DNA of 64,000 bases from positions 1 through 64,000 of the forward strand of contig JAGAAO010000071.1 of the NCBI GenBank assembly GCA_017615275.1, in the 5' to 3' direction. Source of the DNA: Butyrivibrio sp. Lineage in GTDB: Bacteria > Bacillota > Clostridia > Lachnospirales > Lachnospiraceae. The notes beneath the pieces were generated by a model. The model had not been told where the DNA came from, did not search any database, and was given only the letters and a program-made list of their open reading frames with translations. The position numbers were made by a program, and so were the translations under genes. The number at the start of each line of letters is the position of its first letter. Within the stretch, counting starts at the first letter, position 1. Below, one piece after another: positions 4,058 through 62,846 of the stretch.

Positions 4058-4270
4058 ATGGGACTGTATTCTGGAAATAAAAAAGAAGGCAACATTGATT
4101 TTGACAGGCTAAGAGAAGATCTGATTGATGAGTATGGTGCTCAGATGGTGACGATTACTGGTGCAATGGGGTATTCGGACATGCGTGACGCTCAGAGTGC
4201 TTCAGAAGATGAACTTCTAAAGATGGCACAAAGAGAAGGAATTAGTCTGGACAAGTACAGAAGATTATAG
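4058..4270 (+). CDS. Small hypothetical protein (70 aa)
   Basis: A short acidic-to-neutral soluble protein beginning MGLYSGNKKEG and ending LDKYRRL. The ATG at 4058 has GGAGG at 4046-4050 with 7 nt spacing; an in-frame GTG at 4040 lies upstream of that ribosome site and is unlikely. There are no membrane segments, cysteines or recognisable motifs. It sits 64 bp downstream of the HsdR-like gene and could be the last gene of that transcript. Directly after its stop begins a tandem-repeat region. Function unknown. Confidence 0.65.
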   Translation: MGLYSGNKKEGNIDFDRLREDLIDEYGAQMVTITGAMGYSDMRDAQSASEDELLKMAQREGISLDKYRRL

Positions 4271-4296
4271 AGAGTCAAGCACCAAGGCGCGATTAG

Positions 4297-4496
4297 TTGA
4301 CTGCAGAAGAGAAAACTGCCAATATGAGTCAATCGCTGAAGCGAAAAATGTTGACTGCAGAAGCTAGAACCGCCGATGTGAGTCAATCGCTGAAGCGAAA
4401 AATGTTGACTGCAGAAGCGAGAATTGCCGATATGAGTCAATCGCCGCAGCAAAATCACTTGACTGCGGAAGCAAGAATTGCAGATATGAGTCAAAT
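4297..4496 (+). repeat. 54-bp tandem repeat array, four copies
   Basis: Units begin with TTGACTGC(A/G)GAAG at 4297, 4351, 4405 and 4459, exactly 54 bp apart; the last is partial. Each unit holds TTGACT paired with a downstream AGTCAA, and most hold the mini-palindrome TCGCTGAAGCGA. The period is a multiple of three and one frame stays open as an 18-residue repeat, but there is no ribosome site, so I treat it as non-coding. Confidence 0.8.
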
Positions 4497-4640
4497 ACGC
4501 GAGCTGTAACCACCGATGCTGAGCTTCAACCACCCACGCGAGCTGTAACCACTGATGCTGAGCTTCAACCACCCACGCGAACTGCAACGACCCGCGTCGG
4601 GCTTCGGCCACCCACGCAGATTCCAATGCTGAGCTTAGCT
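4497..4640 (+). repeat. 39-bp tandem repeat array, three copies plus a decayed fourth
   Basis: Units begin with ACGCGA at 4497, 4536 and 4575, with a decayed copy at 4614, spaced exactly 39 bp. Units 1 and 2 differ at a single base, while units 3 and 4 have diverged. The array directly abuts the 54-bp array and ends at the stop codon of the convergent Gx transporter gene. Function unknown. Confidence 0.8.
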
Positions 4641-4643
4641 CAA

Positions 4644-5159
4644 TCATGGCTCCATCATCCTTATCGGCTTCACGTGCTTGCAGACGAGACCGCCGATGAT
4701 ACCGACGATAATACCGCTGGCGGTGCCGGTGATCCAGAGGACTGCGAGGTACCAGAGGATGCTGGAAGTGCCTGTTACGAACATGGCGACTAAGATCTGA
4801 CCTACATTGTGGGTGAGGCCTCCTGCGGCGCTCACGCCGACTGAGCTGAATTTGTCGGTCTTTTTTAACAGGATCATAACTGTGGTGCTGAGGATGCCGC
4901 CGATGGCTGAGAACATGAATGCCATAAGTGTGCCGAACAGGATAGATACGATCAGGATTCTGACAAAGTTTATAAAGAGCGCGCTCTTATCACCGAGAGT
5001 GTAGAGTGCGACCACTACAACGATATTTGTAAGACCCGGCTTGATTCCCGGAATCGCGAAGAATGCCGGAAGCTGTAATTCAACATAGCCAAGTATTATT
5101 GCCAGCGCAGTGAAAACGCCGTAGATTGCAGTTCTGCGTACAGGTGTCATTTCATGCAT
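4644..5159 (-). CDS. Gx transporter family membrane protein (heptaprenyl diphosphate synthase component I-like)
   Basis: A 171-residue hydrophobic protein with about five predicted membrane helices and the conserved-looking N-terminal region LQLPAFFAIPGIKPGLTN, which matches the family annotated as Gx transporter or heptaprenyl diphosphate synthase component I. It probably acts in the cytoplasmic membrane as a small-molecule carrier; the substrate is not evident. The ATG at 5159 lies 6 bp after the stop of the NusG-II gene, and its ribosome site (CGGAG) falls at that stop, so the two genes are co-transcribed and perhaps translationally coupled. A second in-frame ATG lies at 5150. Confidence 0.8.
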   Translation of the reverse strand: MHEMTPVRRTAIYGVFTALAIILGYVELQLPAFFAIPGIKPGLTNIVVVVALYTLGDKSALFINFVRILIVSILFGTLMAFMFSAIGGILSTTVMILLKKTDKFSSVGVSAAGGLTHNVGQILVAMFVTGTSSILWYLAVLWITGTASGIIVGIIGGLVCKHVKPIRMMEP

Positions 5160-7675: not shown

Positions 7676-7729
7676 ATATTAGTTGTAGTAGAAATAGCGC
7701 AGACTAACAATGTGCGGAATGGAGTTCAA

Positions 7730-9004
7730 ATGACAAAGATCGATATTATATCAGGTTTTTTGGGTGCAGGTAAAACTACACTTATAAAGAAGCTTCTTAA
7801 AGAAGCATTAAACGGAACCAAGGTGGTTCTTATTGAGAATGAGTTCGGAGAGATTGGTATCGACGGCGGATTCCTGAAGGAGTCCGGAATTGAGATAACA
7901 GAAATGAATTCAGGATGTATCTGCTGTTCACTTGTAGGTGACTTTGAGACGTCACTTAAAGAGGTTATGGCTACATATGCACCTGAGAGAATTCTTATTG
8001 AGCCATCGGGAGTCGGCAAGCTTTCAGATGTAATGAGAGCAATACAGAATATCGCGGATGCCGATGATAATATGGAACTTAACAGTGCGGTTACTGTTGT
8101 TGATGTATCAAAGGCAAAAGTATATATAAAGAATTTCGGTGAGTTCTTTATCAATCAGATTGAGAATGCCGGAACAATCATTCTTTCAAGAACAGATAAA
8201 GCAGATCAGAAGAAGATAGAAGAGGCTGTTGCACTTATCCGCAGCCACAATGAGAAGGCAACGATCATAACAACACCTCTTGATCAGATAACAGGAAAAG
8301 AGATTCTTGATACTTTCGAAGGAAACAGTGATCTTGAAGCGGAGCTCTTAAAGCTTGTGATGGAAGAAGCACAGGAGCATCATCACCATCATCATCACGG
8401 AAGCCACAAAGAGGTCAACGAGGATGGAACTGTAGTATACAGATCACATCACCATGATGACGATGAAGATGAAGAAGAGCATGATCATTGCTGCCATCAC
8501 CACCATCACGATGATGAAGATGAAGAAGAGCACGAGCACTGCTGCCATCATCACCATCACGATGATGAAGATGAGGAAGAGCACGAGCACTGCTGCCATC
8601 ATCACCATCACGATGATGAAGATGAGGAAGAGCACGAGCACTGCTGCCATCATCATCACGATGACGACGATGAGGAAGAGCATGATCATTGCTGCTGTCA
8701 TCACCATGATCATGACCATGCGGCTCATGATGTATTCACAAGCTGGGGAATGGAAACTCCCGTTAAATATACAGCTGAAGAGATTACCGGTATGCTTGAG
8801 AAGCTCGATGAAGACTCAGATTATGGAATCGTTCTTCGCTCTAAGGGTGTTGTTCCCGCAACAGACGGCACATGGATCGAATTTGATTATGTACCCGGCG
8901 AAGCTGATGTAAGAACAGGCGCAGCCGATGTTACCGGCAAGATCTGTGTTATCGGATCTATGCTCAACGAAGACAAGCTTGAACAGCTTTTCCGCAAGAT
9001 TTGA
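7730..9004 (+). CDS. CobW/COG0523 family GTP-binding metal chaperone with Cys/His repeat linker
   Basis: A 424-residue P-loop GTPase of the CobW family, which loads or traffics metals such as zinc. Near the N-terminus are GFLGAGKTT (Walker A), ENEFG and the family metal site GCICC. IEPSG and SRTDK follow. Residues about 216-330 form a metal-binding linker: a His run, then five units near 17 residues of the form HHHHH-DDEDEEE-HEH-CC. The last 90 residues are the CobW C-terminal domain. The start at 7730 has GGAG 5 nt upstream; a GTG at 7712 is less likely. It is the first gene of an operon with a second CobW-like protein. The metal is not shown; zinc is the usual guess for such His-rich linkers. 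Confidence 0.9.
   Translation: MTKIDIISGFLGAGKTTLIKKLLKEALNGTKVVLIENEFGEIGIDGGFLKESGIEITEMNSGCICCSLVGDFETSLKEVMATYAPERILIEPSGVGKLSDVMRAIQNIADADDNMELNSAVTVVDVSKAKVYIKNFGEFFINQIENAGTIILSRTDKADQKKIEEAVALIRSHNEKATIITTPLDQITGKEILDTFEGNSDLEAELLKLVMEEAQEHHHHHHHGSHKEVNEDGTVVYRSHHHDDDEDEEEHDHCCHHHHHDDEDEEEHEHCCHHHHHDDEDEEEHEHCCHHHHHDDEDEEEHEHCCHHHHDDDDEEEHDHCCCHHHDHDHAAHDVFTSWGMETPVKYTAEEITGMLEKLDEDSDYGIVLRSKGVVPATDGTWIEFDYVPGEADVRTGAADVTGKICVIGSMLNEDKLEQLFRKI
8447..8722 (+). repeat. In-frame 51-bp tandem repeat encoding Cys-Cys/His/Asp-Glu modules
   Basis: Codon pairs TGC-TGC occur at 8489, 8540, 8591, 8642 and about 8690, that is 51, 51, 51 and 48 bp apart. The middle units are nearly identical in DNA, indicating recent duplication within the cobW-like gene. 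Confidence 0.9.
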
Positions 9005-60664: not shown

Positions 60665-60791
60665 AGAAAAGGTGAGTGAAATGCTGCGCTGTTGATAAAG
60701 GTTGAAGTATATGGTATTATGTTAATAATATGTTTAGATGTTATTAATTTATTGATAATAGAGTAAGGAGAGTTTTGTTTGGGAAGCGTTC

Positions 60792-61020
60792 TACGTGAGA
60801 CTATGCAAAGAACTAGAGAAGTTCACGTAAATATTACCGGGAATTGCGATAATTTACGTGAGACATTACCAAGAAAACAGTGCGATTCACGTAGATATTG
60901 CCAAAAATTGAGAGAATTTACGTGAGATCTTGACCAAAATAAGGGCGATTCACGTAGATTAGACGCAGAATCAAAATTTTTTACGTGAGTGGGAACAGAA
61001 ATCAAGTAGCTGCTCACGTA
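60792..61020. repeat. Array of eight alternately inverted TACGTGAR sites
   Basis: TACGTGAG occurs at 60792, 60855, 60919 and 60982; its inverse (T/C)TCACGTA at 60822, 60886, 60949 and 61013. Steps are 30, 33, 31, 33, 30, 33 and 31 bp, mean 31.6, that is three DNA turns. Spacers are 22-25 bp. The longer 63-64 bp pair unit is loosely conserved (GCGATTCACGTAGAT; AATTTACGTGAGA). A TTG-initiated 48-codon frame (60779-60925) crosses part of it but is broken by the 64-bp steps, so it is treated as non-coding. The array ends 38 bp before the next gene. Confidence 0.85.
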
Positions 61021-61058: not shown

Positions 61059-61412
61059 ATGGGATTATTTGATTTTTTCAAGAAAAAGGAAATTATTTCT
61101 TTTGCAGAAATCGATTCGGTGAGTAAAGCAAAGAAAGAAGTCAGGAACGGCAATTTAGAAAAAATGTTTATTATGTCACCGATGTTTGGCGGCGCAACAG
61201 ATGAATCAAACATCCTATACGTTCCTGTCGGAGTAAATAAGATTAAGGAAAGCTATGACAATATGCTTGCTGATCTTGTTGAACAGGGAAAAGCAGTATC
61301 ATTTGATTGCACACCTGAATACAGAGGTGACAGCGTTGTTCCTTGTAAGATTACGCTTACCGCAGGGGGGGATGGAGAAGACACATTTAATCAGACAATA
61401 AATGTTTGGTAG
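61059..61412 (+). CDS. Small cytoplasmic protein of unknown function
   Basis: A 117-residue protein beginning MGLFDFFKKKEI. No signal peptide or membrane helix. The sequence alternates strand- and helix-like parts and ends with TLTAGGDGEDTFNQTINVW. GAGGGAGG precedes the ATG by about 8 nt, a strong signal. It starts 38 bp after the TACGTGAR array, which might therefore regulate it. Not recognised. Confidence 0.75.
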   Translation: MGLFDFFKKKEIISFAEIDSVSKAKKEVRNGNLEKMFIMSPMFGGATDESNILYVPVGVNKIKESYDNMLADLVEQGKAVSFDCTPEYRGDSVVPCKITLTAGGDGEDTFNQTINVW

Positions 61413-62159: not shown

Positions 62160-62183
62160 GAACAGAAGTTGTGAATATATAGG

Positions 62184-62255
62184 ATTTGGCAAACATACAG
62201 TGATGTATGGACGCAAAGTTGTAAGTCTTTTATGTAAGATGGTTTGACTGCAAAT
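62184..62255 (+). ncRNA. Cyclic-di-GMP-I (GEMM) riboswitch
   Basis: Reading along the + strand: P1 5' strand ATTTGGCA, then the invariant GGCAAAC, then P2 CATACA-GTGA-TGTATG (six pairs with a GNRA tetraloop, 62194-62209), then GGACGCAAAG (62209-62218). P3 has an internal loop GTAAG/TGG resembling the tetraloop receptor (62217-62248). The 3' strand of P1 is TGCAAAT (62249-62255). This layout matches the GEMM-I consensus. The P1 3' strand is also the first arm of the terminator that follows, so ligand binding should favour read-through (an ON switch). Confidence 0.85.
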
Positions 62256-62315: not shown

Positions 62316-62846
62316 ATGAAGAAAAAGTTTTTAGTATTTGTTTTTTTGATGGCTGTAGTGGCAGCTAATGTCGGTGTTATTGCAGTAAGAAGTGCAAGCG
62401 AAAATCAGAATACGGGAGTAGAAAAATCCAAGGTCGGACTTGAGCTTTTATATGAATGGCAGAATCAGGCGTTTGAGGTTAGTTCGGACTACAACCACAA
62501 TCTGAGCTATTGTGATGCGGATGAGCTGAAGCTTAATTGTGTCGCTGTAAATCTGTGTGCATATAACAACGCACAGCAGGACAATCAATTGACGGTTGAT
62601 GAAGTTGTTGATTACTTCAGTGAAGAATATGATTCCAACGGAGAACTCAAGGTTTATTCGAAACCTGAAGAAATCCATGATTACATTGATTGGTATTATC
62701 ACGGAGGAAGTGATTGTATCAAGGATTTTGGAGAGGGCTTTAATGACTATCTTCGCGAAAAAGGAAACAATGGATATAGTGATCTGAGCTACGAGGAAAC
62801 CTCTGCGGCTTTGAAAAATTACGTAAATGCTGAAATAGCAGAGTAG
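62316..62846 (+). CDS. Secreted hypothetical protein under c-di-GMP riboswitch control
   Basis: A 176-residue protein with an N-terminal signal sequence (about 4-24, KKKFLVFVFLMAVVAANVG) and no lipobox Cys, so it is probably released or anchored by the uncleaved helix. The mature part is acidic (Asp/Glu rich, several Cys). Family not recognised. GTAAGAGG precedes the ATG. It is the first gene downstream of the riboswitch terminator, so its synthesis should depend on c-di-GMP. Confidence 0.8.
   Translation: MKKKFLVFVFLMAVVAANVGVIAVRSASENQNTGVEKSKVGLELLYEWQNQAFEVSSDYNHNLSYCDADELKLNCVAVNLCAYNNAQQDNQLTVDEVVDYFSEEYDSNGELKVYSKPEEIHDYIDWYYHGGSDCIKDFGEGFNDYLREKGNNGYSDLSYEETSAALKNYVNAEIAE

Follow-up and report, generated by a model that had tools for sequence, protein, structure and literature searches.

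Alternating inverted TACGTGA arrays in Butyrivibrio and related Lachnospiraceae, and their linkage to a family of small, putatively PD-(D/E)XK-like proteins

What is the function of a row of eight short, alternately inverted sites in the genome of a Butyrivibrio species? The window that we analysed is a stretch of 64,000 nucleotides (64 kb) of this genome, and the array occupies positions 60792–61020 in it. The sites match TACGTGAR and form four inverted pairs, with a same-orientation period of 63–64 bp. On the plus strand lie sites 1 (60792–60799), 3 (60855–60862), 5 (60919–60926) and 7 (60982–60989), each TACGTGAG, and on the minus strand lie sites 2 (60822–60829), 4 (60886–60893) and 6 (60949–60956), each TACGTGAA, and site 8 (61013–61020), TACGTGAG. 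A preliminary description of this DNA had reported eight alternating sites with steps of 30–33 bp and a mean of 31.6 bp. All eight are exact and in place, the alternation is strict, and the starts of the 8-mers reproduce the spacing (30, 33, 31, 33, 30, 33 and 31 bp; mean 31.6 bp). The steps between the 7-bp cores, TACGTGA, are 31, 32, 32, 32, 31, 32 and 32 bp.

The motif is concentrated at this locus. On both strands of the 64-kb window TACGTGAR occurs nine times, compared with 2.33 expected, and eight of the nine occurrences are inside the array; in 100 shuffles of the window the maximum count was six, and none gave nine. A general detector of alternating inverted 8-mers, with one mismatch allowed and steps of 18–50 bp, was run over the window in 212 overlapping tiles of 600 bp and found a chain of at least five sites in three of them, one of which contains this array. 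The two other tiles, at 8.1–9.0 kb (8101–9000), are CAT-repeat coding sequence that gives a false alternating chain. The CAT repeats encode a histidine- and acid-rich stretch in the ORF at 7712–9004.

The array had been described as neither coding sequence nor CRISPR, and both exclusions hold. A single ORF of at least 60 aa overlaps it, a 64-aa frame on the minus strand with a GTG start, and the one-base differences in period break the frame. CRISPR arrays have direct repeats, unrelated spacers and cas genes, whereas the sites here are inverted and about 8 bp long, and the spacers are near-copies of one another in several arrays. A known RNA family was also rejected for the array, as the sole Rfam match at gathering score in the window is elsewhere. 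This match is a c-di-GMP-I riboswitch aptamer at 62178–62255 on the plus strand (47.6 bits, gathering score 35), upstream of a 176-aa ORF at 62316.

Is the array unique to this locus? In the window's own genome (G000, 84.8% complete), a two-site pattern gave 20 matches and its reversed control none, and a looser pattern gave 30 matches per strand, with the controls again at zero. The genome has a total of nine TACGTGA arrays on nine contigs. They contain 77 core sites, 71 of them exact, part of this exactness being explained by the location of arrays through exact sites, which favours intact arrays. Spacers of equal length in different arrays have a mean identity of 32–38%. Compared with mechanically called ORFs, the arrays are intergenic, except for one that extends into an ORF at its 3′ end (L033).

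When related genomes were searched for the alternating unit, arrays were found in Butyrivibrio, Pseudobutyrivibrio and other Lachnospiraceae. A three-site pattern applied to one genome per species (84,980 species) matched at least 50 stretches, where arithmetic predicts about two by chance; among the matches listed, the titles name Butyrivibrio, Pseudobutyrivibrio, other Lachnospiraceae or uncultured Clostridiales in every case except one. A Planctomycete match (L075) has three sites and no longer array, and is probably due to chance. The same pattern matched in 4 of 397 genomes of a family sample, with 0 of 397 for the control. The two-site pattern was rejected as a marker of presence in the genus sample, and single site pairs may be chance, because its reversed control matches in 10 of 61 genomes. 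Altogether, 66 distinct TACGTGA arrays were called (deduplicated only by exact or contained sequence), each with 3–12 sites. Of these, 55 begin with a plus site and end with a minus site, eight have plus sites at both ends, three have minus sites at both ends, and none begins with minus and ends with plus. The logo of 421 sites reads YTACGTGA, with A/T-rich DNA at the midpoints between sites, and the conserved site of 7–9 bp is not palindromic. At L037 (about 4200–4800) the TACGTGA array is closely preceded by another alternating array, which has ten sites, the motif CTGTGCGG and steps of 28/24 bp.

One of the arrays in G000, at C1:24313–24602, is followed after 55 bp by a gene for a protein of 266 residues (C1:24658–25455). 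This gene and a called array share 18 loci, and in 17 of them the gene, or a remnant of it, starts about 20–60 bp after the array; in the exception, L086, the array is about 1 kb beyond the gene end. The surroundings of the gene and array are not always the same: in several species they adjoin what we take, from its sequence, to be a GMP-synthase-like (guaA-like) gene, and in others they are located elsewhere. G000 has six genes of this family, which lies outside the window, and none of them is beside the other eight arrays, the window array included. In the genomes G045 and G060, TACGTGA arrays are present although no close cognate gene is (the best identity is 57% in G045 and 38% in G060), and at L036 (519–1014) an eight-site array is kept where just the C-terminal part of the linked gene is left. 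Thus, an array can survive loss of the gene or be acquired by itself.

Relatives of the linked protein were found in 53 of 61 genomes of the genus sample (E ≤ 1e-10, a count that may include partial matches), where a single genome has nine matches at most. In the family sample they were found in 89 of 299 genomes, representing 88 of 298 genera (E ≤ 1e-40). In a phylum sample of 398, full-length matches were seen only in five Lachnospiraceae genomes, and seven further genomes share the C-terminal part only. A viral origin was considered and rejected, since one viral contig (L104) has an array and nine viral relatives of the protein have upstream chains of at most three sites; eight of the nine match over the C-terminal part only. 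The array on L104 (11813–13491) adjoins an integrase-like ORF close to where the retrieved stretch ends, possibly in host DNA at the edge of a prophage.

The general detector shows that alternating arrays precede the relatives as well. A chain of at least five alternating 8-mers is present within 600 bp upstream at 45 of 74 gene loci, a set that includes near-copies. The controls gave 1 of 876 for shuffles, 2 of 70 for stretches downstream and 0 of 74 for coding sequence. Outside the genus, such chains were found at 19 of 31 loci, a set in which the gene of L186 is mis-started, and they have up to 24 sites; the controls gave 0 of 240 for shuffles and 2 of 30 downstream. For non-redundant genes (<75% mutual identity, after 4 of 89 proteins were set aside because their similarity is confined to the C-terminal part), 54 of 85 have a chain of at least five sites within 1.1 kb upstream and 45 have at least six, with a maximum of 32 sites. 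Chains of at least five were seen in 2 of 528 of the corresponding shuffles, none of which had six, and in 4 of 84 downstream stretches. The four proteins that were set aside have no chain of five or more, their upstream chains having just two or three sites. At the strict setting, 31 of the 85 genes are without a chain of at least five; a looser scan shows regular steps, by eye, in about ten of these 31, at a setting where shuffles reach six. Two loci are unlike most: L125 has a nine-site array downstream of the gene, and L184 has arrays on both sides.

The motifs are common to close relatives and mostly different otherwise, although TAC or ACG recurs. Motif similarity shows a weak correlation with identity of the N-terminal half of the protein (rho 0.11, 9 of 2000 permutations), which becomes rho 0.08 (49 of 2000) without L206, for which the domain split is faulty. 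For the C-terminal half there is no such trend (318 and 431 of 2000 permutations). The motif of L137, searched as an exact pattern, has 0 matches in G000, but this pattern misses the array of L137 itself too.

The preliminary description had placed all of the sites on one side of the helix, and the gene family bears this out. In 45 arrays of at least six sites, the same-orientation period is 51–54 bp in 27, 62–65 bp in 14 and 73–76 bp in 4, with none in between. These groups are close to five, six and seven turns of 10.6 bp, and the phase is zero at 10.6 bp, although the test is not sharp, as any turn of 10–12 bp gives R of 0.83–0.88 (Rayleigh). The window array, with its period of 63–64 bp, is in the six-turn class. 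These recurrent helical periods, the near-invariant sites in diverged spacers and the linkage to one protein family support the earlier suggestion of an array to which a protein may bind cooperatively.

Are the sites recognized in DNA or in RNA? It had been pointed out that neighbouring copies can pair as RNA, and this holds computationally: shuffled sequences fold much less well than the window strand (z = −5.9). Furthermore, the distance to the gene is short enough for many arrays to be expected in its 5′ leader. Both observations are what one would expect if the arrays worked as RNA, with a row of leader hairpins bound or cut by the protein, as in repeat-RNA systems. However, the z-score does not discriminate, because any inverted array folds. 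Among 423 sites, 61 deviate from the core, and the same change is found in the inner partner in 2 of 59 cases and in the outer partner in 2 of 46. Since deviant sites are so rarely compensated, it is the sequence, and not the pairing, that is kept. The helical-turn periods have no RNA explanation, and the spacers are near-copies in several arrays (L223, L211, L208 and L168), hence not varied guides. A multi-hairpin RNA, which the preliminary description had offered as one possibility, is thus disfavoured, and we consider it highly unlikely. The conservation of sequence together with the helical phasing argues for duplex DNA, rather than RNA hairpins, as the probable recognized form. An effect of the array on expression of the gene is plausible.

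What kind of protein accompanies the arrays? It is under purifying selection, with a median dN/dS of 0.135 for 58 pairs. Comparison with NCBIfam gave no match, comparison with Pfam none above cut-off, and comparison with PHROGs and PDB sequences nothing convincing. The last 110 residues match PDC-S68 (4.5e-27) and HEAT_CxxC_PD-DEXK (4.2e-05), and S160, K161, E163, E180, P193, D194, W208, E209 and H210, among others, are invariant in 51 diverse members. A structure model has a mean pLDDT of 82 and a pTM of 0.55. The C-terminal part thus appears PD-(D/E)XK-like, as judged from one named model, the PDC-S68 entry, which has no description, and the conserved acidic residues. The textbook PD-(D/E)XK motif includes a lysine. 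The WEHxG stretch of the linked protein does not have this lysine in its usual position, which leaves catalysis uncertain.

From the computed features, namely the array, its recurrence, the linkage to the gene family, the motif differences, the helical periods, the purifying selection and the dispersed copies, we infer a scheme for binding, for the half of the protein that reads DNA, for cleavage, for cooperativity and for the way in which copies spread. The 266-residue protein would bind its own array at the YTACGTGA sites, taken as inverted pairs, and binding would be cooperative, along one face of the double helix. The more variable N-terminal half perhaps reads the site, and cutting or nicking of DNA may be the task of the PD-(D/E)XK-like C-terminal part. 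Arrays adjacent to the gene may also control it, while gene-less arrays would be spread through the genome, the agent being either the protein or other transposases acting in trans. Several observations speak against this reading: 31 of 85 family genes have no strict chain, motif similarity correlates weakly with the N-terminal half, the arrays of G045 and G060 have no close cognate, array and gene are more than 100 bp apart in 21 of 45 cases, and the textbook lysine is displaced. We suggest, with moderate confidence, that such a cognate array was the source of the window array, a copy that has no gene, with the protein binding its own array and copies dispersing in a REP-like manner.

The most direct alternative is that the arrays are operators through which the protein regulates its own gene, the gene-less arrays being a small regulon that perhaps includes the ORF next to the window array, and the PD-(D/E)XK-like part serving binding or a second function. 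In 31 of 63 cases (near-copies included) the array ends within 60 bp of the gene start, which leaves little room for a promoter in between. A promoter score was uninformative, as the value assigned to no hit distorts its means; the score of the real stretch exceeds that of its shuffles in 37 of 58 pairs. The window array itself lies between a promoter-like site, TTGATA-17-TATTAT, at 60692–60720 on the plus strand (a consensus match only, with 4 matches in the region compared with a shuffle mean of 2.4) and a 117-aa ORF at 61059–61412 on the plus strand, which starts 39 bp past the array and is outside the array-linked family. This placement would suit an operator. However, a homologue of the 117-aa ORF in G024, 79% identical and the one homologue to bear on this point, has no TACGTGA site upstream. 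Upstream TACGTGA sites are likewise absent for two partial matches to the ORF in G035. Although the homologues are few, this comparison suggests that the array was gained at the window position and is not a conserved operator of the 117-aa ORF. The gene-less arrays of G000 have no common setting: some separate co-directional genes, others precede genes and others again lie between convergent ones. The neighbouring genes are also unrelated to one another. Moreover, arrays of up to 32 sites far exceed an ordinary operator. We regard the operator explanation, including the role that it assigns to the C-terminal part, as doubtful.

The proposed dispersal of cognate arrays is consistent with what is seen for two further motifs in other genera, for which arrays are dispersed away from the listed family genes. 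In G356, the motif of one member, TACGTACA, is present on several contigs, with 31 pairs in total including the gene-linked array, and in G295 the motif GACACGCA is found at three places besides the gene, with a total of 13 pairs per strand. In addition, ten TACGTGA arrays are inside elements of 246–307 bp with terminal inverted repeats like CAATGTCATTTAGATAA, often with GGACGG-type flanks (L047, L053, L056, L059, L063, two at L066, L069, L072 and L080). Flank duplications of 9 bp, read by eye, are present at two of these elements, L056 and L063. In the species that bear such elements, the arrays appear to move as miniature elements. A scan of all fetched loci showed no element around a gene-linked array, and a search near the window array with one known terminal repeat gave 0 matches at up to four mismatches. 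The earlier idea of a mobile non-coding repeat is supported for the array family, in view of the dispersed copies and the ten within terminal-repeat elements; the window copy is without such ends.

The same ten elements, two of them with flank duplications, raise the question of whether the window array is simply a miniature element or satellite in decay that no longer has a function, its site pattern being a legacy of the element. Such a relic would be compatible with cognate binding elsewhere. The ends of these elements are absent around the window array, however, and the exactness of 71 of the 77 sites in G000, compared with 32–38% identity in the spacers, is unlike neutral decay, even though the exact-site search contributes to this difference. 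On balance, we think a functionless relic unlikely.

If the preferred reading of the window array as a dispersed cognate copy is extended to the whole family, a larger picture can be drawn, which we put forward only tentatively. The Lachnospiraceae may have an undescribed repeat system of multi-copy, small PD-(D/E)XK-like proteins with private phased inverted arrays and gene-less arrays elsewhere. Paralogues in the same genome would have separate DNA codes, and each protein would cut or pair its arrays, either spreading them or reshaping the chromosome. If this were true, the family would be a natural library of some fifty protein–site pairs.

No reports of these arrays or of their pairing with the gene were found in the open-licence literature, and a paper on the comparative genomics of Butyrivibrio (PMC6912079) does not use the words repeat, inverted or intergenic in its main text. 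A gene–array pairing with a regularity comparable to that of CRISPR or REP/RAYT has thus apparently gone unnoticed in a large family of gut and rumen bacteria. Different sites are found beside different members, so that many natural pairs are available for direct tests of how DNA is read and what the phased array does. Cutting of the arrays by their own proteins, if it occurs, would be a new route for the spread of short repeats in genomes.

How does this arrangement compare with known systems? REP/BIME repeats are thought to be dispersed by RAYT proteins. REP repeat and RAYT protein are reported to vary together (PMC2817692, PMC3116915), and REP/BIME/REPIN elements with RAYT (TnpA-REP) resemble the present arrays in their regular alternating repeats, in a gene tied to its own repeat type and in gene-less copies. 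Whereas RAYT is a Y1 tyrosine transposase, the linked protein here appears PD-(D/E)XK-like. Y1_Tnp (PF01797) had no match in G000 (84.8% complete), while the control matched in 5 of 14 genomes, and four linked proteins compared with Pfam had no Y1/HUH transposase match. The REP repeat is a palindrome of 20–40 bp (PMC3733652), whereas the sites here are about 7–9 bp and are not hairpins by themselves. The REP/RAYT gene is flanked on both sides by inverted repeats, but the arrays here are mostly 5′ only (upstream 45 of 74, downstream 2 of 70; non-redundant downstream 4 of 84). Furthermore, there are nine arrays in G000, not over a hundred repeats, and the period follows helical turns.

TIGR arrays (PMC12045711) have two alternating repeats of 8–12 nt, spacers mostly of 9 nt and 36-nt RNAs, and the Tas protein has a Nop domain. 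TIGR-Tas is similar in having a gene beside a tandem array and repeats that vary by locus, but the sites here are inverted and the periods are 51–76 bp, and no Nop family was among the Pfam matches of four members at E ≤ 1. The PADLOC candidate defence proteins PDC-S68 and HEAT_CxxC_PD-DEXK are alike over the C-terminal 110 residues. However, the PDC-S68 models have more than 1,200 positions and match only at their end, and neither the N-terminal half nor the array is part of either PADLOC model. There is also a likeness to MITEs in the ten array copies within 246–307-bp elements with terminal inverted repeats, whereas the window array is without such ends. We regard the arrangement as nearest to REP/BIME with RAYT, which it would most resemble in its working, but the RAYT transposase was not found and the repeat unit differs; TIGR-Tas differs in domain, orientation and unit length.
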